Positions 100-54,060 of a DNA stretch of 59,261 nt are shown piece after piece. Position 1 is the stretch's first letter; each line of letters begins with the position of its first letter. This stretch comes from Komagataeibacter nataicola (lineage in GTDB: Bacteria; Pseudomonadota; Alphaproteobacteria; Acetobacterales; Acetobacteraceae). The position numbers and the translations under genes were made by a program. The notes beneath the pieces were generated by a model, which saw only the letters and a list, made by a program, of their open reading frames with translations, ran no database searches and was not told where the DNA came from. The stretch is taken from NCBI RefSeq assembly GCF_003207795.1, contig NZ_NIRT01000019.1, positions 1-59,261 on the forward strand, written 5' to 3'.

Positions 100-250
100 A
101 TTGTTTGAAAACAAATCATTGATAAAAAATAGGAAAATTTTTTGGGGCCGTCGTTTAAAAAAAATGGCGTCTTCTGAAGCTTTTTGAAAAAAGCTTCACC
201 AAAAACTTTTACAATTTCAGGATATTATTGAGCCTGACTTTCAAGCAGCC
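100..250 (+). repeat. Intergenic hairpin repeat, long form
   Basis: AT-rich element with a terminal TTGAAAACAA block, ATTGATAAAAAATA, a degenerate GC hairpin near 146–170, then the AAGCTTTTT…AAAAAGCTT hairpin at about 177–196 and ACCAAAAACTTTT. It continues into a tail (CAGGATATTATTG then GCCTGACTTTC) shared only with the copy at 13642. Plus orientation here means that the GC hairpin precedes the AAGCTT hairpin. Confidence 0.8.
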
Positions 251-275
251 CCTTAGACTGCAGAAAGAGGAGCGA

Positions 276-356
276 TAAACGTTTTTGGTAACGCTTTTTT
301 CGAAAAGTTTTGAAAGCATAATACCCTTTCAAAAAAGACAGCATCCTCAAACTTCG
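276..356 (-). repeat. Intergenic hairpin repeat, degenerate copy
   Basis: Reads AAACGTTTTTGGTAACGC, then a decayed AAGCTT-type hairpin and a run ending in GCATCCTCAAACTTC. This matches the reverse orientation of the family; the GCATCCTCA end is also present at 42710. It lies immediately downstream of the minus-strand gene that stops at 369. Confidence 0.7.
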
Positions 357-368
357 GGAGGCAACCGG

Positions 369-1031
369 TTATTGCGCGGCTTTGCCTACGTTTGAGGGGG
401 GCGGAAGGTCGCTCTCCGCCGCGTTCTGGTTCTGGCCCAGGGCAATGGTCACGTCCACCGTCTCCTGATTGACCAGCGCATCAAACCGGGGGTCGACCAC
501 CGTGTTGCGGGTGGCGGCCGCCATGTCGCCAAAGCGCAGATGCGCCCAGTCAATCCGCGCATCGGCCGCGCGGGTCATGTCAAAGGCCACCATGGGGTGG
601 CGGGAGCTATCGGGGGCGGTATAGAACCAGTCGAAATGACAGCTTGCGGGCGCACCGCGCTGGGTGAACAGCGCGTGCACGAAGCCCGGCGTCACATCAA
701 TCTGCAATGTGTTCATGAGGTAATGCGGGATCTGTTTTTGCAGCGCGGGTGTGACCTGCGTGTTGAACAGCCCTGCCTGAATCATTTCCGGCATGTGGGC
801 CATGAAGATGGACTGGTTGATGGTCATCTCCACCCGGCAGGGCGTGCTCTGGGCAAAACGGGTTTCAATGCCCCAGGCATGGGCCGTGGTCTGCGGCCCC
901 ATGATCGGTGCGGGATAAGCCGGTGCCGCATGGCTTGGAGCTGGCAGCAGGGCCATGGCAAGACAGGCCCCCGCGCCCTGAAGCAGGCGGCGCAGGCGGT
1001 GCGGGTAGGGAAGGCATGCAGGGCGGTGCAA
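369..1031 (-). CDS. Putative exported protein, family not recognised
   Basis: 220 residues. The N terminus has an arginine-rich n-region followed by a hydrophobic stretch and an A-x-A-like site (PSHAAPA near residues 33–39), so Sec export to the periplasm is likely. I recognise no domain. Cysteines are few and the C-terminal tail is Pro/Ser/Ala rich. The reading frame begins at TTG (1031) with a stop only 6 codons upstream. The next in-frame ATG, at 956, would cut away the signal peptide's charged region, so I favour the TTG, although no good ribosome-binding site is visible. The gene ends beside two repeat copies. It is probably monocistronic. Coding status is supported by length, high third-position GC and the coherent signal peptide. 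Confidence 0.6.
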   Translation of the reverse strand: MHRPACLPYPHRLRRLLQGAGACLAMALLPAPSHAAPAYPAPIMGPQTTAHAWGIETRFAQSTPCRVEMTINQSIFMAHMPEMIQAGLFNTQVTPALQKQIPHYLMNTLQIDVTPGFVHALFTQRGAPASCHFDWFYTAPDSSRHPMVAFDMTRAADARIDWAHLRFGDMAAATRNTVVDPRFDALVNQETVDVTIALGQNQNAAESDLPPPSNVGKAAQ

Positions 1032-1520
1032 GGCGTGACCAGTCCGTATTCAGGGTAAAACAGTTCTGCCTCTTTCCTGTCATGAAGAGCGGCTTCATGC
1101 CAGCCCTGCCCGGCAGGCGGGGTATGCTTCATGGCAGGGTTGCATATCAAATCTATGTAATTAAAACGCGTATTTCTGAATTTATTAAAGATATATTATA
1201 TCTTGTATGTATTGTTCCAGTATCGTTTTGTCATGATATAAACTGGCCTTTGAAATGCCATAATAATACACTTTATATCCCTGCCATGAAGTGCTACAGC
1301 ATGCGGCGACACGATACGGCACGGTGTTGCGAAATCGGACGCAAGTGTCTGTAAAAAAATGTTTTTAATAGCCAGTTCGTCGGGCAACCCTTCAGTCCGG
1401 ACCACGTTGGCGCGTTACGACAATAGCAAGAAACAGGCCATGACCGGCATGCGGGTTTTTTCCACCCAAGGGGAAACCGTACGGCGCGCTGGTGCAAAGG
1501 GCCGCTCAGGGCAGGAAGTC
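1032..1520. other. 489-base intergenic stretch, AT-rich centre
   Basis: No convincing gene. Bases 1140–1290 are strongly AT-rich compared with the rest of the window. They include TTGTTC at 1212 and TATAAA at 1237, a poor promoter candidate because the 19-base spacing is long. It could serve the small gene starting at 1521 or be spacer. No repeat copy is present. Confidence 0.4.
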
Positions 1521-1733
1521 ATGTTTGATTCAAAGATTATAGAAGTGGATGGCGTGTTCGTGGGGGCGGCCATCATCACCGGGCTGGCCACGTCGCTGCG
1601 CTTTTATGCCACGCATGAAAGCGTGCGCTCGCTGCATAATGCCATCCTGCCGGACCTTGCGGCGCTGCGGCACCATGTCACGGCTACGTTCCGCCGCATG
1701 GGGCGCGGCAGGGCCTGCCTGCCGCGCGCGTAA
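1521..1733 (+). CDS. Small hypothetical protein
   Basis: 70 residues beginning MFDSKIIEVDG, with a modestly hydrophobic segment (GVFVGAAIITGLATSL) followed by a basic, histidine-containing C-terminal half. I chose ATG 1521 because AGGAAG lies just upstream. The frame is open back to ATG 1359, but that upstream part has weaker coding character. The protein may be a small membrane-associated polypeptide with one short helix. No family is recognised. It is followed by the strong bidirectional terminator at 1791–1832. Confidence 0.4.
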   Translation: MFDSKIIEVDGVFVGAAIITGLATSLRFYATHESVRSLHNAILPDLAALRHHVTATFRRMGRGRACLPRA

Positions 1734-1790
1734 GGCATTCCATTGAAAACAGGATTTTGTGCTGAAGCCTTGTGAACAAAGCCCCGAAAA

Positions 1791-1832
1791 GGGTGCCGCT
1801 TTTTCAAAAAAAGGCGGCACCCGGGCTTTTTT
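1791..1832. terminator. Bidirectional terminator built from repeat core
   Basis: GGGTGCCGC (1791–1799) pairs with GCGGCACCC (1814–1822) around an A/T loop and is followed by CTTTTTT. On the opposite strand the same stem is followed by TTTTC. It sits between the small gene ending at 1733 and ilvD, which stops at 1831, so it can end transcription from both sides. The stem matches the GC hairpin of the intergenic repeat. Confidence 0.8.
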
Positions 1833-3693
1833 AGCGGCTGGTGCGGCGGCCGATCTGGCTTACGTCGCGCACGGCGCCGCGGGCTGCGCTGGTGGTCAGC
1901 GCGCTATAGGCCTGCAGGGCGACCGAGACCGTGCGCGTGCGGTCAGGCTGCCAGGCGCGTTCGCCGCGCTCTTCCATCGCGTCACGGCGTGCGGCCAGCG
2001 TGGCATCGCTTACGGTGGTGCGCAGGATGCGGTTGGGGATGTCGATCTCGATCGTGTCCCCTTCCTTGAGCAGGCCGATGATGCCGCCCTCCGCCGCCTC
2101 GGGCGAGATATGGCCGATCGAAAGCCCCGAACTGCCACCCGAGAAGCGGCCATCGGTAATCAGGGCGCATTTCTCGGCCAGACCCTTCGATTTGAGGTAG
2201 CTGGTGGGGTACAGCATCTCCTGCATGCCCGGGCCGCCCTTGGGGCCTTCGTAGCGGATCACCACCACGTCGCCAGGCACGATCTCGTTGCCCAGAATGG
2301 CCGAGACGGCGGCATCCTGGCTTTCAAAGATGCGGGCAGGCCCGGTGAAGGTGAGCAGGTTGTCGGCCACGCCAGCGGTTTTGACGATGGCGCCGTCTTC
2401 CGCCAAGTTGCCAAACAGCACGGCCAGCCCGCCATCGCGGCTGTAGGCATGTTCCGCATCACGGATCGCGCCATTCGCCCGGTCGGTATCAAGCGCCCTG
2501 TAGCGGCTTGACTGCGAGAACGCCTGCGTGGTGCGCACGCCGCCCGGTGCCGCGCTGAAGAAGATGCGCGCCGCCTCATCCGCCGTTGCGGCGCTGATAT
2601 CCCACTGGCCCAGCGCCGTGCCCAGATCGGCGGAATGCACGCTGGGCACGTCCATGTGCAGAAGCCCCATGCGGGCCAGTTCACCCATGATGGCGGGAAT
2701 GCCGCCCGCGCGGTGCACGTCTTCCATATGGATGTCCATGCGTGAGGGCGAGACCTTGCACAGATTGGGCACCCGGCGTGAGAGGCGGTCGATATCGGCC
2801 ATGGTGAAGGGCACCTTGCCCTCGTGAGCTGCGGCCAGCAGGTGCAGCACGGTGTTGGTCGAGCCGCCCATGGCCACATCGACCGTCATGGCGTTTTCAA
2901 ACGCGGGCTTGGTGGCGATGCCGCGCGGCAGAGCCGTGGCGTCATCATTTTCATACCATCGCTTGGCCAGGGCCACGATGTCGCGGCCCGCGCGCTCGAA
3001 CAGTTCGCGCCGGTCGGTATGGGTGGCGACAAGGCTGCCATTGCCCGGCAGGGCCAGGCCGAGCGCCTCGGTCAGGCAGTTCATGGAGTTGGCGGTGAAC
3101 ATGCCCGAGCACGAGCCGCAGGTGGGGCAGGCGGAGCGTTCGATCGTGGCCGACTGCTCATCGCTGACATCGGTATTGGCCGCCGCCACCATCGACGTGA
3201 TGAGATCGACCTGCTGCTCGGTGCCGTTATTGAGGATCTTGCCCGCTTCCATCGGCCCGCCAGAGACGAAGATGGTGGGAATGTTGAGCCGCATCGCCGC
3301 CATGAGCATGCCCGGCGTGATCTTGTCGCAGTTGCTGATGCACACCAGCGCATCGGCGCAGTGGGCATTGACCATGTATTCCACCGCATCGGCGATCAGC
3401 TCGCGCGAGGGCAGGCTGTACAGCATGCCGCCATGGCCCATGGCGATGCCGTCATCAACCGCAATGGTATTGAACTCGCGGCCAATGCCGCCGGCCCCGG
3501 CTACCGCCTCCGCCACGAGCTGGCCCATATCCTTGAGGTGGACATGGCCGGGCACGAACTGCGTGAACGAGTTGGCGATGGCGATGATCGGCTTGCCAAA
3601 GTCGCCATCCTTCATGCCGGTTGCACGCCACAGGCTGCGCGCACCGGCCATGTTGCGGCCATGGGTCGTCGTGCGGGAACGATAGGCGGGCAT
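1831..3693 (-). CDS. ilvD: Dihydroxy-acid dehydratase
   Basis: Catalyses dehydration of 2,3-dihydroxy-isovalerate and 2,3-dihydroxy-3-methylvalerate to the 2-oxo acids, the third common step of isoleucine and valine synthesis, in the cytosol. 620 residues, the full family length (E. coli about 616). The N terminus [19 protein letters not shown] is the family hallmark and fixes the start at 3693; an ATG further upstream at 3762 would add an unrelated 23-residue tail. Iron–sulfur ligands are seen at NCDKITPGM (residues ~121–129) and [15 protein letters not shown] (~192). The C terminus is intact. The gene stands alone and ends at the bidirectional terminator. A Leu-rich upstream peptide is not evident. 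Confidence 0.97.
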
Positions 3694-3911
3694 GACAGTG
3701 ACCTCTTGCGTCAATCTGGTTAAAGAAGGGGATAAAGTTGCCTGATCGCATACAGGACGCACGCCCCCTGCGCCACCCCAAAGCGCACGGGCCTGAACCA
3801 GCCGTTAACCGGCGGCGTGCAAGGGTGCGGGGGGAATGGGCGCAACTCCACCCCGTAGCCAGTCGTTCATCTGATGGCTGACCCCCATCTGCACAAGGAG
3901 CACCTGCAGCA

Positions 3912-6032: not shown

Positions 6033-6040
6033 GGGATGAT

Positions 6041-6148
6041 CTGCAATCAATGTATTGATAATAAATGATAAAACATTTTGGGTGCCGCCTTTTTGAAAAT
6101 AAGGCGGCGTTCCCTGAAGCTTTTTGAAAAACACTTCACCAAAAACTG
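6041..6148 (+). repeat. Intergenic hairpin repeat
   Basis: Nearly complete copy: TATTGATAATAAATGATAAAA, then GCCGCC (6084) pairing with GGCGGC (6103), GTTCCCTGAAGCTTTTTG and CTTCACCAAAAACTG. It begins 9 bases after the AsmA gene stop. Confidence 0.85.
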
Positions 6149-6272
6149 TCTTCTGCTGGCATACTGTTTTCTGCACGGGCTTTTCGTGCAGTTTTCAGCC
6201 CCGCGAATCCCTGCTTGACCGTGCGGGACATTTCGGCAAAAAGGGGAAACACTATGGCAGCAATGCTATAAT

Positions 6273-6347
6273 GCCGGGTTAGCACAGTGGTAGTGCAGCG
6301 GTTTTGTAAACCGAAGGCCGGGGGTTCAAATCCCTCACCCGGCACCA
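6273..6347 (+). tRNA. tRNA-Thr (TGT anticodon), CCA encoded
   Basis: Acceptor arms GCCGGGT and ACCCGGC close around a D-arm (GCAC…GTGC), an anticodon loop TTTGTAA and a T-arm containing GGTTCAAATCC, followed by discriminator A and CCA (6345–6347). The top pair of the anticodon stem appears to be a G·A mismatch. Reads ACA codons. Confidence 0.95.
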
Positions 6348-6361
6348 TTTTCATAAAAATC

Positions 6362-6446
6362 ATGAAAAGTTCCCGGTGAAGCTTTTTTTCCAGAAAGCTT
6401 CGAGAAACGCTGCCTTTTTTAAAATATAAGGCAGCGCTCCGGGTCT
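6362..6446 (-). repeat. Intergenic hairpin repeat
   Basis: Reverse-orientation copy starting 14 bases after tRNA-Thr: CGGTGAAGC…AAAGCTTCG, then AACGCTGCC pairing with GGCAGCG across an A/T core. It may terminate the tRNA transcript and, from the other side, the DsbA-like gene. Confidence 0.85.
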
Positions 6447-6464
6447 TCTGCCCTTTATGGCCGG

Positions 6465-7028
6465 TCAGGCAAAAATACGCGCCATCCATTCTTCCACCGT
6501 ATCGCCGCTGCTGATGGCAGGGTCGATCAGGCCATCGACCATGAAGGTGGGCGAGACGTGGATGCCGTTCTGGCGGGAATATTTGCACTGCCACTTGATG
6601 GCTTTCTGCAATGCGGGCACGGCAAAGGCCGTGGCGAGTTCCAGCCCGCTATAGCGTTCGATCCGGCGGATGATGTCGTTTGGGGTCGCATCCATGTTCG
6701 GGCCGGCGCAGTGGTTGGTGAACTCGAATTCCTCGCGGTGCGCGCCCACGGCTGCCATGACGGCACGCGCGGCGTTCCGCCCGTCTGGCAGGGTTGCGGC
6801 GGCGAGGATGCAGCGCACGATCACGCCCGAGAACATGTGCCACGGCTGCGACTGAAGGCGGATCCTGATGGTGATGCGCTCCGGCCCCGCCGCCGCAAGC
6901 AGTTCGGGCAGCTTGGTGAAGGCCCGGACGGAAAACGGGCAGGTCGGTTCCAGAAACGCCTCGAACACTTTCGGGCCATGGCCCCATACCAGCGGATCGA
7001 CATGCAGGGTATCGGCGGGTGCTGCCAT
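6465..7028 (-). CDS. DsbA-like thioredoxin-fold protein with one active-site cysteine
   Basis: 187 residues with the DsbA/Thioredoxin_4 pattern: EPTCPFSVRAF near residues 28–38 occupies the CxxC position but reads CPFS, so only the N-terminal cysteine remains. A cis-proline segment (VSPTFMVDG near 160) is kept, supporting a true thioredoxin fold. No signal peptide is visible, so it is probably cytosolic. Function is unknown; one-cysteine members are candidates for glutathione-type or monothiol chemistry rather than disulfide formation. Divergent from the 8-oxoguanine deaminase gene with a 136-base shared promoter region. ATG 7028 is supported by GGAG upstream on the coding strand. A dsbB gene exists at 24842, but nothing links the two. 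Confidence 0.75.
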   Translation of the reverse strand: MAAPADTLHVDPLVWGHGPKVFEAFLEPTCPFSVRAFTKLPELLAAAGPERITIRIRLQSQPWHMFSGVIVRCILAAATLPDGRNAARAVMAAVGAHREEFEFTNHCAGPNMDATPNDIIRRIERYSGLELATAFAVPALQKAIKWQCKYSRQNGIHVSPTFMVDGLIDPAISSGDTVEEWMARIFA

Positions 7029-8532: not shown

Positions 8533-8546
8533 ACCCGCCCCGTGGG

Positions 8547-13641: not shown

Positions 13642-13811
13642 CTGTTCAGGAACAGGGTTTAGATAAAAATAATCAAAGTCATCAGGTGCCGCCTTTTTTC
13701 AAAAAGGCGGCGTCTTCTGAAGCTTTTTGGGAAAAGCTTCGCCAAAAACTTTATAATTTCAGGATATTATTGGGCCTGACTTTCCAAACAGCCTCTCAGG
13801 AACCGTTCCTG
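13642..13811 (+). repeat. Intergenic hairpin repeat, longest copy with flanking palindromes
   Basis: The most complete copy. It begins with the dyad CTGTTC-AG-GAACAG (13642–13655), followed by AGATAAAAATAATC, the perfect stem GCCGCC…GGCGGC (13689–13712), the AAGCTTTTTGGGAAAAGCTT hairpin, CGCCAAAAACTTT and the tail CAGGATATTATTG/GCCTGACTTTC shared with the copy at 100. It closes with a second dyad CAGGAAC-C-GTTCCTG (13797–13811). Confidence 0.85.
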
Positions 13812-15947: not shown

Positions 15948-16028
15948 CATGAAAAAGGTTTCCGGATGCCGCCTTTGTTTATAAAGCGGCGCTCTTCCGG
16001 GACCTGAAAAACCACACCAGAAACCTTT
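15948..16028 (+). repeat. Intergenic hairpin repeat, diverged
   Basis: GGTTTCCGGATGCCGCC, an A/T core, then GCGGCGCTCTTCC and ACACCAGAAACC. The element abuts the stop codon of the alcohol dehydrogenase gene (16029–16031), so it forms that gene's 3' end on the minus strand. Confidence 0.75.
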
Positions 16029-17015
16029 TTAGGGCACCAGCACGGCAGCGCCTTCAAAGCGGCCGTGGCGCAGGTCATCAAGCGCTTTGTTGGCGTCCTT
16101 CAGCGGATAGGGCGTGGTGGTGGTGCGGATGTCCACGCGCGGCACGAGTTCGAGGAAGTCGATCCCGTCCTGCCGGGTCAGGTTGGCAACCGACATGATC
16201 TGGCGCTCCTCCCACAGCAGGTCGTAGGAAAAGGCCGGGATCTCGCTCATGTGGATGCCCGCGCATACCACGCGCCCCGCCTTGTGCACGGCCTTGAGCG
16301 CTGCGGGCACCAGCGCGCCCACGGGCGCGAAGATGATGGTGGCGTCAAGCTGTTCGGGCGGGGCTTCATCCGAGCCGCCTGCCCATACGCAGCCGAGCGA
16401 GCGGGCGAATTCCTGGGTTTTCGTGTCACCAGGGCGGGTGAAGGCATAGACCTTGCGCCCCTGCCACACGGCCACCTGTGCAATGATATGGGCTGCCGCC
16501 CCAAAGCCATACAGCCCGATGCTCCGGGCCTCCTGGCCCGCCATGACCAGTGAGCGCCAGCCGATCAGCCCCGCGCAGAGCAGCGGAGCCACGGCCACAT
16601 CGTCATCCCCATCAGGCAGGGGAAAGGTGAAATGCGCATCCGCCACCGCTTTCGTGGCGTAGCCGCCATCACGCGTGTAGCCAGTGAACAGCGGGTGGTC
16701 GCACAGGTTCTCGTGGTCGGTCTGGCAGTAGTGGCAGCAGCCACAGGTATGGCCCAGCCACGGAATGCCCACGCGCTGGCCCATGTGCAGCCCCTCCACA
16801 TTGGGGCCGATGGCGTCGATCCGTCCCACGATCTCGTGGCCGGGGGTCAGCGCATGGCCGGGGAAGGGCAGGTCGGCGTCGACCACGTGCAAGTCGGTGC
16901 GGCACACGCCACACGCGCCTACGGTCACGCGGATCTGTCCCGGCCCCGGCTGGGGGTCGGGCAGTTCGGTCCATTGCAGGGCGGTGTGGGGGGCGAGCAG
17001 TCGCATTGCGTACAT
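16029..17015 (-). CDS. Zinc-dependent alcohol dehydrogenase
   Basis: 328 residues of the medium-chain dehydrogenase family, oxidising alcohols or reducing aldehydes with NAD(P). Catalytic zinc ligands: Cys in GACGVCRTDLH (~residue 36) and the His of PGHE. The structural zinc site is CGCCHYCQTDHENLC (~residues 91–105). The nucleotide-binding Rossmann segment is IGLYGFGAAAHII. The sequence most resembles the AdhA/AdhP-like cytosolic enzymes common in acetic acid bacteria; it is not the membrane PQQ-dependent enzyme. The start at 17015 is fixed by AAGGAG 8–13 bases upstream. Monocistronic, ending at a repeat copy. Confidence 0.92.
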   Translation of the reverse strand: MYAMRLLAPHTALQWTELPDPQPGPGQIRVTVGACGVCRTDLHVVDADLPFPGHALTPGHEIVGRIDAIGPNVEGLHMGQRVGIPWLGHTCGCCHYCQTDHENLCDHPLFTGYTRDGGYATKAVADAHFTFPLPDGDDDVAVAPLLCAGLIGWRSLVMAGQEARSIGLYGFGAAAHIIAQVAVWQGRKVYAFTRPGDTKTQEFARSLGCVWAGGSDEAPPEQLDATIIFAPVGALVPAALKAVHKAGRVVCAGIHMSEIPAFSYDLLWEERQIMSVANLTRQDGIDFLELVPRVDIRTTTTPYPLKDANKALDDLRHGRFEGAAVLVP

Positions 17016-17126: not shown

Positions 17127-17163
17127 GCTTTGAAATAAGGCGGCGTTCTCCTGAACGGGTTCC
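17127..17163 (+). repeat. Intergenic hairpin repeat fragment
   Basis: TTTGAAATAAGGCGGCGTTC followed by TCCTGAACGGGTTCC: the distal half of the GC hairpin and following segment only. It abuts the 3' end of the minus-strand gene stopping at 17168. Confidence 0.6.
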
Positions 17164-17167
17164 GCGC

Positions 17168-18322
17168 CTATTCCTCCACGCGGTAGGGGGTCATGGCATC
17201 AAGGGCGGGCAGTTCGGCCCGTATGGCCGCGCGCTCGTGCTGCAGGAATTCGGCCACGGCCTCACGCAGGCCGGGGTGGCTGATCCAGTGAGCGGAATGG
17301 GTCAGGCAGGGGCGGTAGCCGCGTTGCAGCTTGTGCTCGCCCTGCGCACCGGCTTCCACCCGTTTCAGCCCGTGGGCGATGGCGAAGTCGATGGCGCGGT
17401 AATAGCACAGCTCGAAGTGCAGGAACGGCCAGTCCCCATCCCGCCGCCCCCAGTTGCGACCGTACAGCGTATCGCGCCCCATCAGGTTGAGCGCGCCCGC
17501 CACCGGCACGCCGTCCTGCCTGGCAATCATCAGCACCACCCTGTCGCCCAGGCGTTCGGACAGGAGCGGGAAGAAGGCGGGCTGCAGATAGGCGCTGCCC
17601 CATTTGCGGTCCACTGTAGAGAGGTAGAAGTGATGGAAATCATGCCACAGCGCCTCGGTAATTTCCGCGCCGCGATAGGTGTGGAATGTCAGCCCGCAGG
17701 CATTGGCGTCGCGCCGCTCGCGCCTGATGGCCTTGCGCTTGCGGGAGGCCAGCATGCCCAGAAAATCGTCAAAGCTGGCATAATCCTGATTATCCCAATG
17801 GTACTGCACGCCAAGGCGCTGTAGCCAGCCGCTTTCACCCAGCAGTTCATATTCATGCGTGGTGCAGAAGGTGACGTGCGCGGAGGAAAGCTCCATCTCG
17901 CCACAGGCCTGCCGCAGCGCGCGGCCCGCCAGCAGGCGCAGGCTGTCGGCATCGGGGGCAGTAGGGTGAACCAGAAGCCGTGGCCCCGGCACGGGCGAGA
18001 ACGGCACGGCTACCTGCAATTTGGGGTAGTACTGCCCGCCCGCCTGCTCGAAGGCGCGGGCCCAGGCGTGGTCGAACACGTACTCGCCAAAGGAATGACC
18101 CTTGGCGTAAAGCGGGGCGACCGCCAGCAGGTGGCCTTCACCGTTGCGCAGGGCCAGGTGCTGGGGCATCCAGCCGGTCTGGGGGCCAGTGGAGCCGCTG
18201 TCTTCCAGTGCGGAGAGGAAGGCGTGGCTGACAAACGGGTTTTCATCACCCGCGCAGTCATCCCACTGCGCCGCCGGGATCTCGGCAATCCGGCGGTGCA
18301 GGGTCATGGTGGTGCCGGTCAT
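17168..18322 (-). CDS. FemAB/GNAT-like protein (COG3146, DUF482)
   Basis: 384 residues. The whole sequence follows the COG3146 'predicted N-acyltransferase' pattern: ENPFVSHAFLSALEDSGS near the N terminus, a central KRKAIRRERR segment and GRNWG…FLHFELCYYRAIDFAI in the C-terminal GNAT-like half. Members are annotated loosely as peptidoglycan-biosynthesis or GNAT proteins. The actual acyl donor and acceptor are unknown. No signal peptide or membrane segment is seen, so it is cytosolic. Third gene of a minus-strand run after the TSCPD protein and RidA (75-base gap). ATG 18322 is used; ATG 18307 is possible. Confidence 0.85.
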   Translation of the reverse strand: MTGTTMTLHRRIAEIPAAQWDDCAGDENPFVSHAFLSALEDSGSTGPQTGWMPQHLALRNGEGHLLAVAPLYAKGHSFGEYVFDHAWARAFEQAGGQYYPKLQVAVPFSPVPGPRLLVHPTAPDADSLRLLAGRALRQACGEMELSSAHVTFCTTHEYELLGESGWLQRLGVQYHWDNQDYASFDDFLGMLASRKRKAIRRERRDANACGLTFHTYRGAEITEALWHDFHHFYLSTVDRKWGSAYLQPAFFPLLSERLGDRVVLMIARQDGVPVAGALNLMGRDTLYGRNWGRRDGDWPFLHFELCYYRAIDFAIAHGLKRVEAGAQGEHKLQRGYRPCLTHSAHWISHPGLREAVAEFLQHERAAIRAELPALDAMTPYRVEE

Positions 18323-20503: not shown

Positions 20504-20834
20504 GCTTCCTGTTTACCGGGCAGCCACGGGGCGGCGGAACCCGCTTACAACGGAGTCGCAACTATACATGCCACTGAATACAGTGGATATGGGGGATAAC
20601 TGTGCAGCGGCTTCGCGCGCCGCCATCACCGCGCCGTGAGGCGACTGCTCCGTGCGCCTTAAATATAAAGTTTCCGGACGCCGCTTTTTTTCAAAAAGGC
20701 GGCGTCTGTAAAAAGTGCGGGCAGTCCCGACGCACGCCCCGCGCTGATCTTCCCCATACTGATCCCGCAGATGTGACGGGCGCGCGCGCAGATGCGCGTG
20801 GACCACGCGGTTGCGGGCGGATTAGGCTTGCGGC
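20504..20834. other. Intergenic stretch between divergent TSCPD and NDUFA12 genes
   Basis: 331 bases. It contains one repeat fragment at 20664–20716 and should hold the promoters of both divergent genes. No gene or other strong signal is seen. Confidence 0.5.
20664..20716 (+). repeat. Intergenic hairpin repeat fragment in a divergent promoter region
   Basis: AAAGTTTCCGGACGCCGC, A/T core, then GGCGGCGTCTGTAAAAAG. Only the GC-hairpin half is present. Unusually for this family it lies between two divergent genes rather than after a stop codon. Confidence 0.75.
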
Positions 20835-29289: not shown

Positions 29290-29374
29290 CACCGGGGGCG
29301 GAATCGCCCCTCAACCAGTCTGCACGGGCTTTGAAGGCAGCCAGAACAGCCTGCTGATGAGAGCCTGTGCAAAT

Positions 29375-29490
29375 TAAAGAAGTTTCTGGTGAAGCTTTTT
29401 TCAAAAAATCTTCACACAACACGGCCTTTTTTAAAAAAAGAAAATTCCGATAAATTTTTACCGTTTTTTATCAATGGGTTGTTTTTAAAT
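29375..29490 (-). repeat. Intergenic hairpin repeat
   Basis: Reverse-orientation copy: AAGAAGTTTCTGGTGAAGC, AAGCTT-type hairpin with one weak arm, a degenerate GC hairpin, then TTTTTTATCAATGGGTTG and GTTTTTAAAT, the terminal block seen in other copies. Confidence 0.8.
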
Positions 29491-33856: not shown

Positions 33857-33872
33857 TAAAAACCCGCGGGAG

Positions 33873-37607: not shown

Positions 37608-38620
37608 CACAGGTTTCGGTTTTTCCCACCCCGGTGCTGCCGGGCCTGCGCAACCTGCTCTCGCGCTATGCGGAAAGCACGATGTGGCTGGCGCGCTACA
37701 TGGAGCGCATCGAGAACATGGCCCGGCTGATCGAGGTTACGGGCACGTCGGTGCATGCCAGCAACATGGATGCGGGGTGGGACAGCGTCATCCGCATCAA
37801 TGCCGATGAGGATACGTTCTTCCTGCGCCACAAGGTCGCGACCGAGCGCACCGTGGTCGGCTTTTACATCACCGATCCCGATAACCCGGATTCGATCGTA
37901 TCCATGGCGCGGTGCGTGCGCGAGAATGCCCGTGTGCTGCGCCCGCTGATCTCGACCGAGATGTGGATGCACCTCAACGTGTTTACCCGCTGGGCCATGG
38001 ATCTCGGGCCTGATGATGTGGGGGCAGGTTACCTGTCCACGCTGTGCACGCGGCTCAAGCAGGAATGCCAGACCCATTTCGGCATAACCGAGGGCACGCT
38101 GTACCGTGATCAGGCCTGGCTGTTCTACCTGCTGGGCAAGAACCTTGAGCGCGCGGACCAGATCACGCGGCTGATCGACATCAAATATCACACCCTGCTG
38201 CCCAGCGGCGAAGGGGTGGGGTCGGATATCGACCTGAGCCAGTGGACTTCTGTGCTGCGCTCGGCGGCGGCTTACCACGCTTTTCGCCGCGTGCTGCCCG
38301 AGGGCATGACGCCTGCCAATATCGTGGGTTTCCTGCTCAAGAATGACGGGTTTCCCCGTTCGCTCTCCACCAGCCTGCGCTGTGTCTATAGCGTGCTCGG
38401 CTCACTGGCGGGGGAATACCGGCTGCGCCATTGCGGGCCGATCCTGGAGCGGGTGGAGGAACTGCGCGTGACGCTGGTCGAACAGACGGTGGAAGACATC
38501 ATCCTGCGCGGCCTGCATGAATACATGGACTGGATCCAGCGCGAACTGCGGCTGATCCAGAACGAGATCGCAGGTGCCTTCTGGCCGCCCGTGGCGGTGC
38601 AGGCGGCCGGTGGCGAGTAA
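37604..38620 (+). CDS. Alpha-E domain protein (DUF403)
   Basis: 338 residues, almost entirely alpha-helical and rich in Glu, Arg and Leu. The N terminus is LLSRYAESTMWLARYMERIENMARLIEV, the hallmark of the alpha-E family that always accompanies circularly permuted ATP-grasp proteins. Probably a binding or scaffold partner for the ligase. The start codon GTCATGAC overlaps the ATP-grasp stop, so the two are coupled. Followed after 6 bases by a repeat fragment. Confidence 0.92.
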   Translation: MTQVSVFPTPVLPGLRNLLSRYAESTMWLARYMERIENMARLIEVTGTSVHASNMDAGWDSVIRINADEDTFFLRHKVATERTVVGFYITDPDNPDSIVSMARCVRENARVLRPLISTEMWMHLNVFTRWAMDLGPDDVGAGYLSTLCTRLKQECQTHFGITEGTLYRDQAWLFYLLGKNLERADQITRLIDIKYHTLLPSGEGVGSDIDLSQWTSVLRSAAAYHAFRRVLPEGMTPANIVGFLLKNDGFPRSLSTSLRCVYSVLGSLAGEYRLRHCGPILERVEELRVTLVEQTVEDIILRGLHEYMDWIQRELRLIQNEIAGAFWPPVAVQAAGGE

Positions 38621-38625
38621 CGGCA

Positions 38626-38684
38626 GGTAAAGCTCCAGAAGAACGCTGCCTTTTCAGGAAAAGGCAGCACCCGGGCACTTTTAT
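38626..38684 (-). repeat. Intergenic hairpin repeat, partial
   Basis: Partial reverse copy: AGCTCCAGAAGAACGCTGCC pairing with GGCAGC and followed by ACCCGGGCACTTTT. It starts 6 bases after the alpha-E gene stop and probably ends that transcript. Confidence 0.75.
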
Positions 38685-38701
38685 TTCTGACAAAAGGAAA
38701 C

Positions 38702-38776
38702 TGGCTGGGGCGGGAGGGTTCGAACCTCCGCATGGCGGAATCAAAATCCGCTGCCTTACCACTTGGCTACGCCCCA
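38702..38776 (-). tRNA. tRNA-Gln (TTG anticodon), CCA encoded
   Basis: On the minus strand the sequence runs TGGGGCGTAGCC…GGTTCGAACC…CGCCCCAGCCA with anticodon loop TTTTGAT. The acceptor stem pairs fully, and CCA is encoded at 38702–38704. Reads CAA codons. Confidence 0.95.
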
Positions 38777-38872
38777 ACAGGCCAACGCCACGCGATTCGC
38801 GTGGGTGTGATGCTGTTCTAATATCTCAGGCGCGGTTTGAAAAGTCTGCCCCCAAAACATCGTGCCCACCAG

Positions 38873-38993
38873 CAAAGACGTTTTTGGTGAAGCTTTTTTC
38901 AAAAAGCCTCAAAAGAACGCTGCCTTTTTGAAAAAAAAGCAGCCCCCGAAAACTTTTATCCTGTTCTATCAAGGTTTTATTTTTAACAGTAGC
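38873..38993 (-). repeat. Intergenic hairpin repeat
   Basis: Nearly complete reverse copy: AAAGACGTTTTTGGTGAAGC, AAGCTT-type hairpin, AACGCTGCC…GCAGC, CCCGAAAACTTTTATCC and the A/T terminal block. It ends 9 bases before the TetR-like gene's stop. Confidence 0.85.
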
Positions 38994-39002
38994 CCAGATC
39001 CG

Positions 39003-42639: not shown

Positions 42640-42753
42640 CAGAAAGACGTTTCTGGTAAAGCTTTTTCAGAAAGCTCGGGAGCACGCCGCTTTTTTTGAA
42701 AAAAGGTGGCATCCTCAGACGTCTGTTTTTTCATCAATGAGTTGTTTTCAAGC
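42640..42753 (-). repeat. Intergenic hairpin repeat
   Basis: Full reverse copy: AAAGACGTTTCTGGTAAAGC, AAGCTT-type hairpin, CACGCCGC…GGTGGCATCC, GACGTCTG, then TTTTTTCATCAATGAGTTG and TTTTCAAGCA. It starts 15 bases after hldD. Confidence 0.85.
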
Positions 42754-43637: not shown

Positions 43638-44674
43638 CCGGGCAGCCCGAACGGCTGGATCACTTCATGGTGCGGGCCAACGCGACCTATTACGCGGGCC
43701 GCGACCCGTTTGCCGATTTCATTACCGCGCCCGAAATCTCGCAGATGTTCGGTGAACTGCTGGGCGCGTGGGTGGCCGTGGTGTGGGGGCAGCTTGGTCG
43801 CCCCGATCCTTTCGTGCTGGCCGAGGCGGGGCCGGGGCGGGGCACGCTCATGGCCGACGCCCTGCGCCTGCTGCGCCGCGTGGCCCCGGCCTGCCATGCG
43901 GCGGCGCGGGTGCACCTGATCGAGACCTCGCCGCGCCTGCGCGCCTGCCAGAACGCGGCCCTGAAGGATGCCACGCCAAACCCGGCAGGCTGGCATGCGG
44001 GTCTTGCCAGCCTGCCGGAGGGGCCGCCGGTGGTCCTGCTGGCCAACGAGTTTGTCGATGCGCTGCCCATCCGCCAGTTTGTCCGCCGGGGGCAGGGCTG
44101 GGCGGAGCGCTTTGTGCAGGCGGGGCGGTTTGTGGAGCAGGCGGCTGCGTTGCCTTCCGGCCACCCGGCATTGGCGCGGCCTGTGCCGGAGGGCAGTGTG
44201 CTTGAAACCTGCCAGCCCGCGCTGGATTTTGTCCATGCGCTGGCTGGCCGCCTGCAACGCGCGCGCGGGGCGGCGCTGCTGATTGATTACGGTTATGATG
44301 CCCCGGCCTGGGGCGACAGCCTGCAGGCGCTTCGTGAGGGCCGACCCGCCGATCCGCTCTGCAATCCCGGCACGGCGGACCTGACCGCCCATGTTGATTT
44401 TGCCAGCATGGCGCAGGCGGCGGGTGGCGTTGATGTATGGGGCAGCGTGAAGCAGGGGGATTTTCTTGCAGCCCTCGGGCTGGGCGCGCGCTGCGAGCAG
44501 CTTGCGCGGGCGGCTCCCGGTCAGGCGCGGGATATAAGAGCGGCAGCCCGGCGGCTGGTGGCGCCCGGGCAGATGGGGCGGCTGTTTCGCGTGCTGGGGC
44601 TGTCGGCAGGTGTGGCGGGCCTGCTGCCGGGTTTTGCGGGGATGCGCGAAGGCAATCCCCCACAGTCAGCATAA
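43634..44674 (+). CDS. NDUFAF7-type SAM-dependent methyltransferase (COG1565)
   Basis: 346 residues. Core: the N-terminal RLDHFMVRANATYYAGRDPFADFITAPEISQMFGELLGAW motif region (split, residues 7–47), FVLAEAGPGRGTLMADALR as the SAM-binding loop, VHLIETSPRLRACQ and ANEFVDALPIRQFV. In mitochondria NDUFAF7 dimethylates an arginine in complex I subunit NDUFS2; in bacteria the target is unproven but plausible. Cytosolic. ATG 43634 overlaps the lgt stop (ATGA). Followed by a repeat copy and pgeF. Confidence 0.92.
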   Translation: MTGQPERLDHFMVRANATYYAGRDPFADFITAPEISQMFGELLGAWVAVVWGQLGRPDPFVLAEAGPGRGTLMADALRLLRRVAPACHAAARVHLIETSPRLRACQNAALKDATPNPAGWHAGLASLPEGPPVVLLANEFVDALPIRQFVRRGQGWAERFVQAGRFVEQAAALPSGHPALARPVPEGSVLETCQPALDFVHALAGRLQRARGAALLIDYGYDAPAWGDSLQALREGRPADPLCNPGTADLTAHVDFASMAQAAGGVDVWGSVKQGDFLAALGLGARCEQLARAAPGQARDIRAAARRLVAPGQMGRLFRVLGLSAGVAGLLPGFAGMREGNPPQSA

Positions 44675-44735
44675 GGACGTTTTTGGTGAAGCTTTTTTCA
44701 AAAAAGGCGACACCCGGAAACTTCTATAAATTGTC
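44674..44735 (-). repeat. Intergenic hairpin repeat with internal deletion
   Basis: Starts at the stop codon of the methyltransferase gene: GACGTTTTTGGTGAAGCTTT, then directly GGCGACACCCGGAAACTTCT. The distal AAGCTT arm and one half of the GC hairpin are deleted, joining the two hairpins. Confidence 0.75.
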
Positions 44736-45554: not shown

Positions 45555-45562
45555 GGAGCGCC

Positions 45563-46549: not shown

Positions 46550-46908
46550 AACCGGGCGGCCGGGCAGGGGCATGCAGGCCGTTTGATTGTTTAAATGCAT
46601 TTTTTAAAAATAATGCGTTGATAAAAAAGCATAAAAATTTCTGGGCGCAGTGTTTTTGAAATAAGGCGGCGTTGTGGCAGAGCCTGTAGAAAAATACGGC
46701 GCCAAAAGCCATCTTGCTGACTGGCAGGGCATGATGGGCGCAGGCGACAAGGGTGTGACGGATCGGCAACGGGGGGCAGACGTGCAGGTTTGCACACCCT
46801 TAGGCAGGTGACAGGCCATGTGCCGGTTGATAGAACGCCGCACATACACAACGGGGGTGGGAAAAACCGCCCTCCAGCGCCTCTACCGCCGCCCGGGAGC
46901 GTCACACG
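46550..46908. other. Intergenic stretch before prs
   Basis: 359 bases. Holds one repeat copy at 46581–46710 and, after it, about 200 bases of GC-rich leader before prs. No gene, tRNA or clear riboswitch is recognised in it. Confidence 0.5.
46581..46710 (+). repeat. Intergenic hairpin repeat, decayed
   Basis: Plus copy: GTTTGATTGTTTAAATGC, ATGCGTTGATAAAAAAGC, then GGGCGCAG…AAGGCGGCGTTG and a decayed AAGCTT half ending CGCCAAAAGCC. Confidence 0.75.
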
Positions 46909-49304: not shown

Positions 49305-49345
49305 TTGCCCACCCACCGCCACGAACCCTGACAGGAGACTGAACG

Positions 49346-49918
49346 ATGCTGCTCTGGACCGGTCTTGGTAATCCCGAGACGGGGATGAGCCGGAATCGTC
49401 ATAACGTCGGCTTCATGGCGGTGGACCGGATTGCGCAGCGCCACGGGTTTGGCCCGTGGCGCAAGCGCTTCCGTGGCGAGATTGCCGAAGGCATGGTGGG
49501 GCGGCACAAGGTGCTGCTGCTCAAGCCCATGACCTACATGAACCTCTCGGGAGAGAGCGTTCAGCAGGCGGCTTCCTTCTACAAGCTGCCCGCCGAGGCC
49601 ATTACGGCCTTCCATGACGAACTTGACCTCGAACCCGGCCGCATCCGCGTGAAGCGTGGCGGCGGGGCGGCGGGGCATAACGGCCTGCGGTCGATGGACC
49701 GCATGCTGGGCACGAAAGAATACTGGCGCGTGCGGCTTGGCATCGGGCATCCCGGCAGCCGCGAGCGTGTGACGGGCCATGTGCTGGGCGATTTTTCCCG
49801 CACGGACCGCGAGTGGCTGGACCCGATGCTTGATGCGCTGGCTGATGAAGCCACGCTGCTGGCGGATGGAAAGCCGGAACTGTTCATGACAAGAATGGCC
49901 GCGCAGGCCGGGGAGTAA
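49346..49918 (+). CDS. pth: Peptidyl-tRNA hydrolase
   Basis: 190 residues. Releases peptides from dropped-off peptidyl-tRNAs. Conserved residues: N9 (GLGNP), H19 (RHNVGF), KPMTYMNLSG, and D in FHDELDLEPG (~91), with GGGAAGHNGLRSM for RNA binding. AGGAG precedes ATG 49346. Located between rplY and ychF in a conserved alphaproteobacterial order. Confidence 0.97.
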   Translation: MLLWTGLGNPETGMSRNRHNVGFMAVDRIAQRHGFGPWRKRFRGEIAEGMVGRHKVLLLKPMTYMNLSGESVQQAASFYKLPAEAITAFHDELDLEPGRIRVKRGGGAAGHNGLRSMDRMLGTKEYWRVRLGIGHPGSRERVTGHVLGDFSRTDREWLDPMLDALADEATLLADGKPELFMTRMAAQAGE

Positions 49919-49924
49919 GGGCGT

Positions 49925-51019: not shown

Positions 51020-51065
51020 TACGGGCACGGTGCCCGTTCACGGATAGATCAGGGAGATACGGATC

Positions 51066-52349
51066 ATGGACCAGGCTGTTGCACCCCCCGCGCGGGCCGA
51101 CGCACCGCAGCCGGACGTGATCCGCGTCATGGCGCTCGCCTCCCGCGTGGCGGCCCGCGTGCTGGCCCGCAGCACGACCGAAACCCGCAACACGGCCCTG
51201 ACCGCCGCCGCCGCCGCCCTGCGCGCGGCCCAGCCGGAGCTGCTTGCGGCCAATGCGCGTGACGTGGCGGCCTTTAGTGGGGCGGCTGCCTTCCGCGACC
51301 GGCTGACCCTCAACCCCGAGCGGGTCGAGGCCATGGCGCAGGGGCTGGAACAGATCGCCGCCCTGCCTGACCCCGTAGGCCATGTCATGGCGGAGTGGGA
51401 CCGGCCCAACGGCCTGCGCATCCGCCGGGTGGCAACGCCTGTGGGCGTCATTGGCATGATTTATGAAAGTCGCCCCAATGTGGGCGCGGATGCCGCTGCC
51501 CTGTGCATCAAGTCCGGCAATGCCGTGATCCTGCGCGGCGGGTCGGACAGCCTGAACAGTGCGCGCGTGATTCATGCGGCCATGCAGGCGGGGCTGAAGG
51601 CGGTGGGGCTGCCGGTTGAATGCGTGCAGATCCCGCCCGATGCCGATCGCGCCCATGTGGCCTCCATGCTGGGTGCCGCCGGGCTGATCGACCTCATCAT
51701 TCCTCGTGGCGGCAAGTCGCTTGTCGAGCGAGTCTGTGCCGAGGCCCGCGTGCCGGTGCTGGCCCATGCCGAAGGGCTTTGCCACACCTACGTGCATGCG
51801 GCAGCAGATCTGGAAATGGCGCGGCGCATCGTGCTCAACGCCAAGCTGCGCCGCCCCGGCATCTGTGGCGCGACCGAGACGCTGCTGGTGGATCAGGCCA
51901 TCGCGCCCAAGATCCTGCCCGGCCTGATCGAGGATCTGGCCACCCGTGGCTGCACCTTCCGCGCCGATGAGCGCGCGCGTGAGACCATTCCCGACCTGCC
52001 TGCCGCCACCGATGCGGATTTCGCCACCGAATGGCTTGATGCCGTGCTCTCGGTTGGCGTGGTGGATGGCGTGGAGGATGCGCTGGCCCATATCGCCCGC
52101 TATGGCAGCGCCCATACCGAAGCCATCGTGACGGAAGATGCCCAGGCGGCTGCCACTTTCCTCAACGGCACGGATAGCGCGGTGGTGATGTGGAATGCCT
52201 CCACCCAGTTCTGTGATGGCGGCGAGTTCGGCTTTGGCGCCGAGATTGGCATTGCCACAGGGCGGTTCCATGCCCGTGGCCCGGTCGGACTCGAGCAGCT
52301 CACCACTTTCCGTTACGAAGTGATCGGCACGGGGCAGGTCCGGCCCTGA
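51066..52349 (+). CDS. proA: Glutamate-5-semialdehyde dehydrogenase (gamma-glutamyl phosphate reductase)
   Basis: 427 residues of the aldehyde dehydrogenase superfamily. Catalytic cysteine in [12 protein letters not shown] (~265), with NAD(P)-binding [36 protein letters not shown] (residues ~130–165). Second step of proline synthesis from glutamate; proC is in this window too but 11 kb away, and proB is not present. Starts 46 bases after ychF; probably co-transcribed with nadD. Confidence 0.96.
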
Positions 52350-52368
52350 TCTGGCCGTGCGCGGTGGC

Positions 52369-53001
52369 ATGGCGCCTGTAATCCCGGCCCATGGGGATGG
52401 ACGGCGCATGCGCGTGGGCCTGCTCGGTGGCTCGTTCAACCCGGTGCATGAAGGGCATGTGCAGCTTGCCTGCCGGGCGTTGCGGCAACTGGGGCTGGAT
52501 CAGGTGTGGTTCCTTGTCTCGCCAGGCAATCCGCTCAAGCCGGTGGCGGGCATGGCCCCGCTGGCGCAGCGGCTGGCAGGCGTGCGGGCACGCATTAATG
52601 GTGTTGCGGGCAGGCGGCTGGTGGCCACCGATATCGAAAGCCGTATCGGCACCCGCTATACGGTTGATACGCTGGCGCGACTGAAGCGGCTTTTTCCGCA
52701 TGTGCGTTTTGTCTGGCTGATGGGGGCCGATGGGCTGGCGCAGATGAACCGGTGGCGGCGGTGGCGCGATATCGTGCATATGACCCCCTTCGCCGTATTG
52801 CCGCGTCCTGGCTATAATCCTGCCGCATTGCACGGCCAGATTGCCCGCAGGCTTGCGCGCTGGCGGCTGCCCGCGCGCAGGGCGGGAACACTGGCAACAT
52901 GCATGCCGCCCGCATGGGTCTTTCTTCCCGCGCCGCAGAACGCTATATCAGCTACAGAAATACGTGCATCGCAGGCCGCCCATGGCCACCGACGGGAGTA
53001 A
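52369..53001 (+). CDS. nadD: Nicotinate-nucleotide adenylyltransferase
   Basis: About 210 residues. Adenylates nicotinate mononucleotide in NAD synthesis. The nucleotidyltransferase HxGH motif is in GGSFNPVHEGH, the ATP-binding ISATEIR near the C-terminal end, and VWLMGADGLAQMNRW in the middle. Start is uncertain: ATG 52369 is given, but GTG 52357 and ATG 52408 (MRVGLLGGSF, the family-typical start) are alternatives; none has a strong ribosome-binding site. The stop at 53001 is 8 bases upstream of a likely rsfS start. Confidence 0.92.
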   Translation: MAPVIPAHGDGRRMRVGLLGGSFNPVHEGHVQLACRALRQLGLDQVWFLVSPGNPLKPVAGMAPLAQRLAGVRARINGVAGRRLVATDIESRIGTRYTVDTLARLKRLFPHVRFVWLMGADGLAQMNRWRRWRDIVHMTPFAVLPRPGYNPAALHGQIARRLARWRLPARRAGTLATCMPPAWVFLPAPQNAISATEIRASQAAHGHRRE

Positions 53002-53006
53002 CAGCC

Positions 53007-53540
53007 ATAACCAGAAAGCCTATAGCCGAGAGTGGCGCCAAGCGCCGTACCGGCAGCCCCCATGCCGCGCCGCGTGCCGTCACGGGTTCACTGGGCAGTG
53101 CCGTGCAGGTGCCGGGCACGCCACGCAAGAAGGCTGCCGTGGCAGGCCCCGCCCGCGCTGAAGCGCGCGAGCCTGACCCGCGCGTGGAACAGTTTCTGGA
53201 GATCATCACCACCAGCCTGGAAGATGACAAGGCTGAGGATATCGTTGTGATCGACCTGACGGGCCGCGCCTCCTTTGCTGACCGCATGGTGATCGCCACC
53301 GGCCTTGCCGACCGGCAGATTGCCGCCATGGCCGCGCATATCGAGCGCAAGCTGGGCGAAGCCGGGCTCAAGCGCGTGCGCACGGAAGGGGCGACCGGCT
53401 CCGACTGGGTGCTGCTGGATGCGGGCGATATCGTGGTGCATCTGTTCAAGGCCGAAGCCCGCGCGCTTTATGGGCTGGAGCGCATGTGGGGTGATGACCT
53501 CGACGTGCCGCCGGAGGCGCCCGCAGGCCCGGTGGCGTAA
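53007..53540 (+). CDS. rsfS: Ribosome silencing factor RsfS
   Basis: Core residues run from about 53180 to the end: EPDPRVEQFLEIITTSLEDDKAEDIVVIDLTGRASFADR and DWVLLDAGDIVVHLF…ALYGLERMWGD, the RsfS/DUF143 signature. RsfS binds L14 and blocks subunit joining under starvation. No ATG lies between the nadD stop and the core, so the start is unclear: the frame stays open to ATG 52899 inside nadD, but GGGAG at 52994–52998 sits 8 bases before ATA 53007 (ITRKPIAES), and GTG 53103/53109 lie further in. I report from 53007 as the most likely ribosome entry; the N-terminal ~60 residues are basic and low-complexity. Coupled to rlmH. Confidence 0.75.
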   Translation: MTRKPIAESGAKRRTGSPHAAPRAVTGSLGSAVQVPGTPRKKAAVAGPARAEAREPDPRVEQFLEIITTSLEDDKAEDIVVIDLTGRASFADRMVIATGLADRQIAAMAAHIERKLGEAGLKRVRTEGATGSDWVLLDAGDIVVHLFKAEARALYGLERMWGDDLDVPPEAPAGPVA

Positions 53541-53543
53541 GCC

Positions 53544-54005
53544 TTGTTTCACCTGATTGCCGTGGGCCGCATGAAGGACCGGGTGGAGCGCGACCTGTTC
53601 GAGCGTTACGCCACCCGGCTTTCGCCCCGCATCAAGCTGGTTGAACTACCTGAAGGGCGCGGTGCGCCCAACGAGATCAAGCGCAGGGAAGGGCAGGCGA
53701 TTCTGGCAGCATTGCCGGATCGCGCTATTGTCGTGGCTATGGATGAAGGCGGCCGCACTTACGACAGCATCGCCTTCGCCCGCGCGGTCGAGCAGTGGAT
53801 CGAGACGCCAAGACCGCTGTGTTTTGTTATTGGTGGGGCGGAAGGGCTTGATGGCCCGGTTGTGCAGCGTGCCGACCATACGCTCTCGCTGGGCAAGATG
53901 ACGTGGCCACACATGCTGGTGCGCGGCATGCTGGCGGAGCAGCTTTATCGCGCCCGCGCCATTTCAGCCGGGCATCCCTATCACCGGGCCGGCCGCCCGG
54001 ACTGA
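53544..54005 (+). CDS. rlmH: 23S rRNA (pseudouridine1915-N3)-methyltransferase RlmH
   Basis: 153 residues, a SPOUT-fold methyltransferase: [11 protein letters not shown] at the N terminus, [44 protein letters not shown] in the C-terminal half with the knot and the conserved YHR at the end. Methylates pseudouridine in helix 69 of 23S rRNA on 70S ribosomes. Starts with TTG 53544 (no in-frame ATG in front), 3 bases after rsfS. Followed at once by a repeat fragment. Confidence 0.95.
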
Positions 54006-54008
54006 AAA

Positions 54009-54060
54009 CACCCCGCCCTGTTTAAAGGCGGTGTTCCGTAAAGCTTTCTGGAGAAAGACC
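54009..54060 (+). repeat. Intergenic hairpin repeat, short decayed copy
   Basis: ACCCCGCCCTGTTTAAAGGC, GGTGTTCCGTAAAGCTTTC and GGAGAAAGACC: both hairpins shortened. It begins 4 bases after the rlmH stop and lies between convergent genes. Confidence 0.65.

Follow-up and report, generated by a model that had tools for sequence, protein, structure and literature searches.

A palindromic core behind genes of Komagataeibacter nataicola, probably an old 3'-end structure carried by a miniature inverted-repeat transposable element

The 59,261-nt contig NZ_NIRT01000019.1 of Komagataeibacter nataicola (assembly GCF_003207795.1), referred to here as the window, has a GC content of 64%, and the AT-rich islands in it share one sequence. 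They belong to an intergenic repeat family whose common part is an 88-nt core of two hairpins closed by a 14-bp outer stem, forming a three-way junction. In an alignment of 37 copies, comprising 29 found elsewhere in the genome by DNA search and eight from the window, the outer stem AATAAAAGTTTTTGG / CCCAAAAACTTTTATT encloses a GAAGCTTTTTTCAAAAAGCTTC hairpin and a GCCGCCTTTTTGAAAAAAGGCGGC hairpin. A preliminary description, made from the letters of the window alone, had proposed a two-hairpin unit of 110–130 bases; the hairpins stand, but a third, outer stem had been overlooked, and the unit is instead the 88-nt core, with full-length copies that are mostly 160–164 bp, bear 15-bp terminal inverted repeats (TIRs), and are of the kind known as miniature inverted-repeat transposable elements (MITEs).

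Window copies were scored with a covariance model (R2) at a match threshold of E ≤ 0.01, and the best eight window cores reached 55–89 bits; with scores this high and copies recurring across the genus, the resemblance is not due to chance. Twelve of the 16 positions first listed for the family are matched at this threshold; 20664 and 46581 scored weakly, and 17127 and 54009 are unmatched at E ≤ 1. Orthologous copies in close relatives back 17127 and 46581, while 54009 has a short match alone. Both orientations occur and all degrees of decay are seen, as originally described, and it holds that no copy lies in a gene, although four (1747, 15950, 38597 and 44671) extend over the final bases of an adjacent called gene, for the most part its stop codon. 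The consensus WATCAANNNNTTR for integration host factor (IHF) has six matches in the window, at five places, and all of them lie inside family copies. The copies are as follows.

97–252, minus strand: near full-length MITE copy by model match, core at 130–214; degenerate TIRs at both ends (1–3 mismatches) read off the sequence
112–124, minus strand: IHF-consensus site WATCAANNNNTTR in the arm of the 97–252 copy (consensus match)
273–360, plus strand: decayed core just past the stop of the minus-strand gene 369–902 (model E 2.5e-5)
1747–1834, plus strand: core between convergent genes, overlapping the stop of gene 1831–3693; its second half is a terminator-like hairpin (E 4.1e-6)
6066–6154, minus strand: core with a remnant arm; IHF-consensus matches at 6045–6060 (E 1.9e-16)
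6361–6453, plus strand: core flanked by a tRNA gene and the end of the gene at 6465 (E 7.3e-13)
13670–13757, minus strand: core with one MITE arm (TIR GAGGCTGTTTGGAAA at about 13781–13795) in a convergent gap (E 4.3e-20)
15950–16032, minus strand: core overlapping the TAA stop of the minus-strand gene 16029–17015 (E 1.8e-11)
17127–17168, minus strand: remnant placed by orthology, with a scored copy in the orthologous gap of 3/5 close relatives; no model match at E ≤ 1
20661–20726, either strand: half element (GC hairpin only) in a divergent gap; partial matches of 26–28 nt on both strands (E 0.016–0.026)
29374–29463, plus strand: core with decayed second hairpin (E 1.2e-11)
29469–29481, plus strand: IHF-consensus site in the tail of the 29374 copy (consensus match)
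38597–38686, plus strand: partial core at the end of a gene finishing at 38620 (E 1.6e-4)
38872–38961, plus strand: best-scoring window core, with an IHF-consensus match at 38967; the orientation is reversed in this gap in 10/18 relatives (E 1.1e-20)
42641–42728, plus strand: core of a MITE copy missing from the 15 relatives compared, where the gap is 39–60 nt (E 3.2e-16)
44671–44729, plus strand: shortened core with its two hairpins fused; TAA stop of the upstream gene at its edge (E 4.4e-5)
46611–46717, minus strand: decayed copy carrying an IHF-consensus site at 46611; 5/6 close relatives have a scored copy at the orthologous gap (E 0.5)
54009–54061, minus strand: possible remnant between convergent genes, the weakest claim; a 38-nt, 76% match only, with no model match at E ≤ 1

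At window positions 1734–1830, sister species were seen by eye to have different terminator-like hairpins replacing the second hairpin of the 1747 copy, and in species further removed this gap contains a plain GC hairpin. The window has three tRNA genes, two of which (6273–6344 and 38705–38776) have copies on both sides.

Single intact copies fold as the junction. For four of them, taken from other parts of the genome and including one folded on both strands, the RNA folding energies were -38 to -41 kcal/mol (z -6.6 to -8.8), and two decayed window copies gave -23 and -34 kcal/mol (z -2.7 and -5.0). The DNA fold of two intact copies agreed with the junction, and one decayed window copy gave no clear DNA fold. 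Within the 37-copy alignment, 90.8% of cells pair, compared with 89.5±0.3 in shuffles, and 11 pairs are altered on both sides, compared with 5.6±1.6. A rod structure produced by RNAalifold (model R1) was not adopted, the junction being what single intact copies form, and it was never used for searching. Above the Rfam 15 gathering score the window yielded only tRNAs, leaving the core unmatched; six loci from other genera had no Rfam match, and three Komagataeibacter loci searched at E ≤ 1 gave two matches, neither on the core. Nothing in phage records matched the core, and no earlier report of the repeat, or of its literal strings, was found among open-licence PMC papers.

A covariance-model search of family genomes, as the preliminary description had proposed, returned at least 150 matches in this K. 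nataicola genome and found the core in 19/19 Komagataeibacter genomes, this one included. In 459 kb of this genome (the window plus 20 stretches) the matches mark 74 distinct places, a density biased upward by drawing this first sample from contigs already known to hold matches. Genes were called by a simple codon-usage script trained on this genome alone rather than by a published gene finder. Sixty-eight places lie between two called genes; of the other six, five are at the edge of a stretch and one was called in a gene. Convergent gaps hold 37 of the 68 and divergent gaps 3, compared with 12.7±3.1 and 20.4±3.8 for random intergenic placement; the remaining 28 are tandem. A stop codon occurs within 30 nt for 50/68 (7.2±2.6 expected). 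A second sample of 400 kb, consisting of two large contigs that also had matches, replicated this pattern: of its 31 places, 27 could be classed, with 13 convergent (3.5±1.7 expected), 1 divergent (6.8±2.3 expected), and 20/27 within 30 nt of a stop (4.7±2.0 expected). Among convergent gaps of at least 30 bp, 34/49 held a copy in the first sample and 12/33 in the second. At tandem sites, 17 copies run with the gene strand and 24 against it. Where a neighbouring gene's stop falls inside the element it is TAA in 16/25 cases, compared with 24.5% of all called genes, indicating that the ATAAAAG end of the element often is the stop codon. The earlier proposal that the repeats were domesticated as 3' ends is very strongly borne out as to position, in both samples; a function there is a less certain proposal.

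Some copies extend beyond the core into arms ending in the 15-bp TIR GAGRCTGTTTGAAAA, and what was initially described as a TTGAAAACAA/ATTGATAAAAA end is this TIR plus the IHF-consensus site. The exact 15-mer was found in 18/19 genomes of the genus, most often in G014 (35+28), with none in any of the 19 for a reversed-pattern control. Pairs of GAGRCTGTTTGAAAA bound 55 short units, 44 of which are 160–164 bp long; these units were mostly fetched by exact TIR match, which biases them to intact ends, and a few of them are probably orthologues of one another (e.g. L009 and L132, both among the 14 stop-codon cases below). Identical trimers flank 34/55 units, and 31 of the 34 are TNA, whereas at outward offsets of 3–12 nt only 1–2/55 trimers match, and shuffling the partners gave a mean of 11.8 and a maximum of 21 in 2000 trials. 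By size, TIRs and target duplications, full-length copies in Komagataeibacter and Novacetimonas are MITEs, which agrees with the original characterization of the family as MITE-like, as does the variation in presence and absence between sister species.

For 14/55 units, a trimer at the flank coincides with the stop codon of a coding frame, 10 of these with the identical trimer on both sides and 4 without. In the sample, stops account for 2.1% of all TNA trimers and for 8.7% of those that are either stop or intergenic (P of 6e-12 and 2e-4, respectively, for 14). The IHF consensus lies in one arm of 41/55 units and 15 nt from the element end in 40, where shuffles averaged 1; the column table for this site was conditioned on part of the motif, but the 41/55 count was not. 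Excerpts of published work describe the IHF consensus and partial matches to it in IS427-group elements of the IS5 family of insertion sequences (ISs; PMC3281130), and in the IS1031 group of IS5 a preference for TNA with formation of a 3-bp repeat (PMC12016507). Arms are frequently absent: at the mismatch thresholds used, 96/159 sites lack all three arm motifs, as do 1910/2000 random windows.

We propose that an IS5-family, IS1031-group transposase moves the MITE in trans. The proposal of an outside transposase is consistent with the data, but the matching ends that were to be looked for did not turn up on an intact IS: the search covered 58 DDE_Tnp_1 (PF01609) loci in two genomes, and none was an intact IS bounded by matching TIRs when ends were scanned at ≤4 mismatches in this genome (G000) and ≤2 in G014. 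One locus in this genome (L160:569-1062, G000:C48) has a broken DDE_Tnp_1 frame ending in GCGCCTGTTTGAAAAATC, with 2 mismatches to the MITE TIR, and then TAA; its second end was not found, and it may at best be a one-ended relic of a related IS. Another (L205:990-1973, G014:C58) was considered as the parent and rejected, being an IS5-type IS with its own TIRs (GGGCCTGTTGGG..) inserted inside a MITE core. A 914-bp cyanobacterial IS encoding DUF4096 and DDE_Tnp_1 carries this TIR at one of its ends and is flanked by TAA on either side. MITE-like units of 116–185 bp with the same 15-bp TIR, identical TNA flanks and other interiors occur in Afipia, Oscillatoriales, Devosia and Xanthobacter (L219, L220, L232, L264). 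The TIR is shared across phyla. The REP-associated tyrosine transposase (RAYT) that is the hallmark of repetitive extragenic palindromic (REP) sequences was sought by its Y1_Tnp domain (PF01797), which had no match in this genome and matched in 5/14 control genomes; mobilisation by RAYT in this genome was dropped as a candidate for lack of a PF01797 match.

Beyond the genus, core matches at E ≤ 1e-4, under stricter filters and with a limit of 14, were found in 45/299 sampled Acetobacteraceae genomes, representing 20/102 genera, with a core length across the family of about 76–100 nt. Elements of other genera share the outer stem and the TTTTTTCAAAAA-like hairpin centres, often on different stems, such as GTTC/GAAC, CTTC/GAAG, CTCCC/GGGAG, GCAGC/GCTGC and GGCCCC/GGGGCC. 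Among 33 distinct elements from 13 genera, 95.1% of cells pair, compared with 79.9±0.7 in shuffles, the hairpin stems changing while pairing is kept; 24/33 pairs are altered on both sides (12.8±1.7 in shuffles), and at one hairpin position all 33 elements pair, using four pair types. These elements are the loci returned for chosen genomes plus five Komagataeibacter copies, and the model used to find and align them leans towards pairing. In the 27/33 elements with parsable ends, the bases outside the conserved stem match each other copy by copy (score 80, compared with 62.8±4.6 in shuffles, of which 1/5000 scored as high). In L337, L340, L345, L355 and others these outer bases vary per copy and yet pair, which no mobility model that we considered explains.

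For 28 elements from 11 genera outside Komagataeibacter and Novacetimonas, 25 are in tandem or convergent gaps and 23 have a 3' end within 35 nt, and no TIR (≤3 mismatches) was found within 70 nt on either side of any of the 28 (one was checked on one side only). As the core takes the same 3' position in genera where the TIR is not seen beside it, it is unlikely to be a product of the MITE; rather, the MITE carries the core. The presence of the core in other genera, with MITE ends unseen beside it, had been overlooked in the preliminary description.

Orthologous gaps were compared in up to 18 relatives for the window and, across 140 kb, in between two and four close relatives. The 42641 copy is missing from all 15 relatives compared, but about 30 nt of the close relatives' gap are lacking here, so this is not a clean empty site. 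The gap at 33857 is occupied in some species, by a copy in one orientation or the other, and holds remnants in others, and the gap at 38621–39002 has one orientation in seven genomes, the other in ten and no copy in two. Comparison with the sister species (G018 and G016) shows the core at L053:5039-5191 and L052:11104-11196 in opposite orientations between shared flanks, which we read as in-place inversion between the outer-stem repeats. Hairpin fusions recur, at 44671 and at L055:16873 in G017. Single changes between orthologues kept the pair in 94/183 cases, compared with 74.4±5.4 expected, in a star comparison whose 42 comparisons in 21 groups are not independent; this replaced an all-pairs test (23/36 double changes paired) in which one inherited change was counted many times.

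The family has features of several known systems. Like elements of the IS1031 group of IS5, it has a short TIR (ISLrh: GAACCTGTCTAG..) and a 3-bp TNA target duplication, as given in excerpts of PMC12016507; unlike them, its copies have no transposase gene, no intact parent turned up in the two genomes searched, and the conserved palindromic core in its interior is found elsewhere without such ends. With REPINs, as described in part of PMC3116915, it shares an inverted palindrome pair with a less conserved spacer, an extragenic location, high copy number, alternative 'hairpin' and 'clover' folds, and compensatory changes. The earlier label of REP-like thus fits in 3'-end position and paired palindromes, but Y1_Tnp (RAYT) is undetected in this genome, for which reason the family is not classed as REPIN despite its shape; in Komagataeibacter it is, moreover, enclosed in DDE-type TIRs. 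Its outer tag is AAAAGTTTTTTG, not the GTAG of REPs in the excerpts of PMC3733652. The same excerpts describe CGTC- and GTAG-tagged REPs as short palindromic repeats, the CGTC type being commonest in Alphaproteobacteria and reported missing in Acetobacteraceae, and compared with these our family has a long outer stem and a different sequence. Correia, ERIC and SPRITE repeats are likewise small and TIR-bearing or terminator-like; according to excerpts of PMC10969869, Correia elements can invert, ERIC at 3' ends affects mRNA, and SPRITE resembles rho-independent terminators. They occur in other hosts and are set apart here by description rather than by sequence comparison, and those excerpts mention neither a covarying two-hairpin core nor stop-codon target duplication for them.

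We consider it probable that the family is a two-layer element, an old bidirectional REPIN-like 3'-end structure that is carried here by an IS1031-type MITE. The first layer is the palindromic core, an inverted hairpin pair within a AATAAAAGTTTTT(T)G / C(A)AAAAACTTTTATT outer stem, able to form the junction, or a rod in some genera, and placed in either orientation just after genes or between convergent genes, where its own ends can supply a TAA stop. In the second layer, which is that of Komagataeibacter and Novacetimonas, this core forms the interior of a 160–164-bp MITE with 15-bp TIRs, an IHF-type site by one TIR and TNA duplications, which would be mobilised in trans by the putative IS1031-group transposase. 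Since TNA covers TAA and TGA (TTA and TCA on the other strand), an insertion at a stop would duplicate the stop and leave the gene intact, and copies would survive at stop-codon sites and other 3' flanks. The arms would presumably erode afterwards while the core remains, and the core may persist, with less certainty, as a bidirectional RNA 3'-end structure, acting as a terminator and/or as a barrier to 3' exonucleases. This bidirectional function is the least certain part of the proposal; position, covariation and pair-keeping single changes point towards it. More tentatively still, the family could be a mobile 3'-end cassette built on the family-wide co-varying element, in which the MITE carries a ready-made bidirectional three-way-junction terminator or mRNA end and the TNA duplication recreates the stop, installing the new end at a gene's stop without harm.

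Several observations weigh against the two-layer reading. If the core were a terminator, gaps containing it should lack separate terminators, but these are about as frequent with the core as without it (convergent 9/34 vs 7/19, tandem 3/28 vs 10/135), the difference being small. On the transcribed strand, G-U shows no excess over A-C (RNA=A 53:25, RNA=B 40:63), and this absence of a wobble strand preference gives no sign of selection on RNA. We take both of these tests as neutral. The U-tract is short and does not directly follow the GC stem, as the outer stem ends CUUUUAU after a gap of about 10 nt from it. Between orthologues, 6/15 double changes kept the pair, about as many as expected (5.4), and of 30 cores in the wider set 15 fold by energy as the junction, 14 as the rod and 1 otherwise, with L353, whose second hairpin lies in the flank, not counted as a junction. 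Pairing is slightly poorer in armless cores than in those with arms (25.8 vs 27.2 of 33 pairs). Some copies are in divergent gaps (3+1) and one was called in a gene. Finally, no intact parental IS was found in Komagataeibacter, and the cyanobacterial IS has 5/18 mismatches at its other end.

Part of this evidence would be expected if the family were a purely selfish, REPIN- or MITE-like palindrome with no host function, whose other insertions were purged, 3' flanks and stops being merely safe, and whose palindromes were kept perfect by hairpin template-switching rather than by selection. TNA and stop-codon sites would then simply be tolerated, palindrome-driven rearrangement would account for the in-place inversions and hairpin fusions at orthologous gaps, and neither the unclear replacement of terminators nor wobble pairs without strand bias would need explaining. 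We regard this as rather unlikely, given that 11 other genera have the core in a like position although no TIR was seen next to it, that convergent gaps of at least 30 bp are occupied in 34/49 and 12/33 cases, and that the core outlasts the arms, the armless sites pairing nearly as well as the armed.

A function at the DNA level, with the cores serving as cruciforms or as protein-binding sites (for gyrase, IHF or nucleoid proteins) that relieve supercoiling between converging units, seems improbable to us. It would suit the strong preference for convergent gaps, the stable DNA fold of intact copies, the use of both orientations at tandem sites and the IHF consensus in the arm; however, that site is in the MITE arm, which 96/159 sites lack, rather than in the core, and tandem 3' ends are occupied too (28/68). 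That the copies are ordinary, unrelated intrinsic terminators that merely look alike is scarcely credible: the 3'-end position and the conversion of the 1747 copy into a terminator-like hairpin fit this explanation, but the shared flanks and TIRs already refute it, and the copies also have in common an 88-nt sequence, an outer stem and target duplications, and are present or absent as units between sister species.

If the two-layer reading is true, the family would link REPIN-like palindromes, IS-derived MITEs and gene 3' ends, which are usually handled separately, and stop-codon duplication by a TNA-targeting transposase would be a concrete reason for a mobile element to pile up behind genes. 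The core, given its covariation across genera, is a candidate new structured class, and the finding would bear on vector design and on the choice of terminators in cellulose-producing Komagataeibacter strains.

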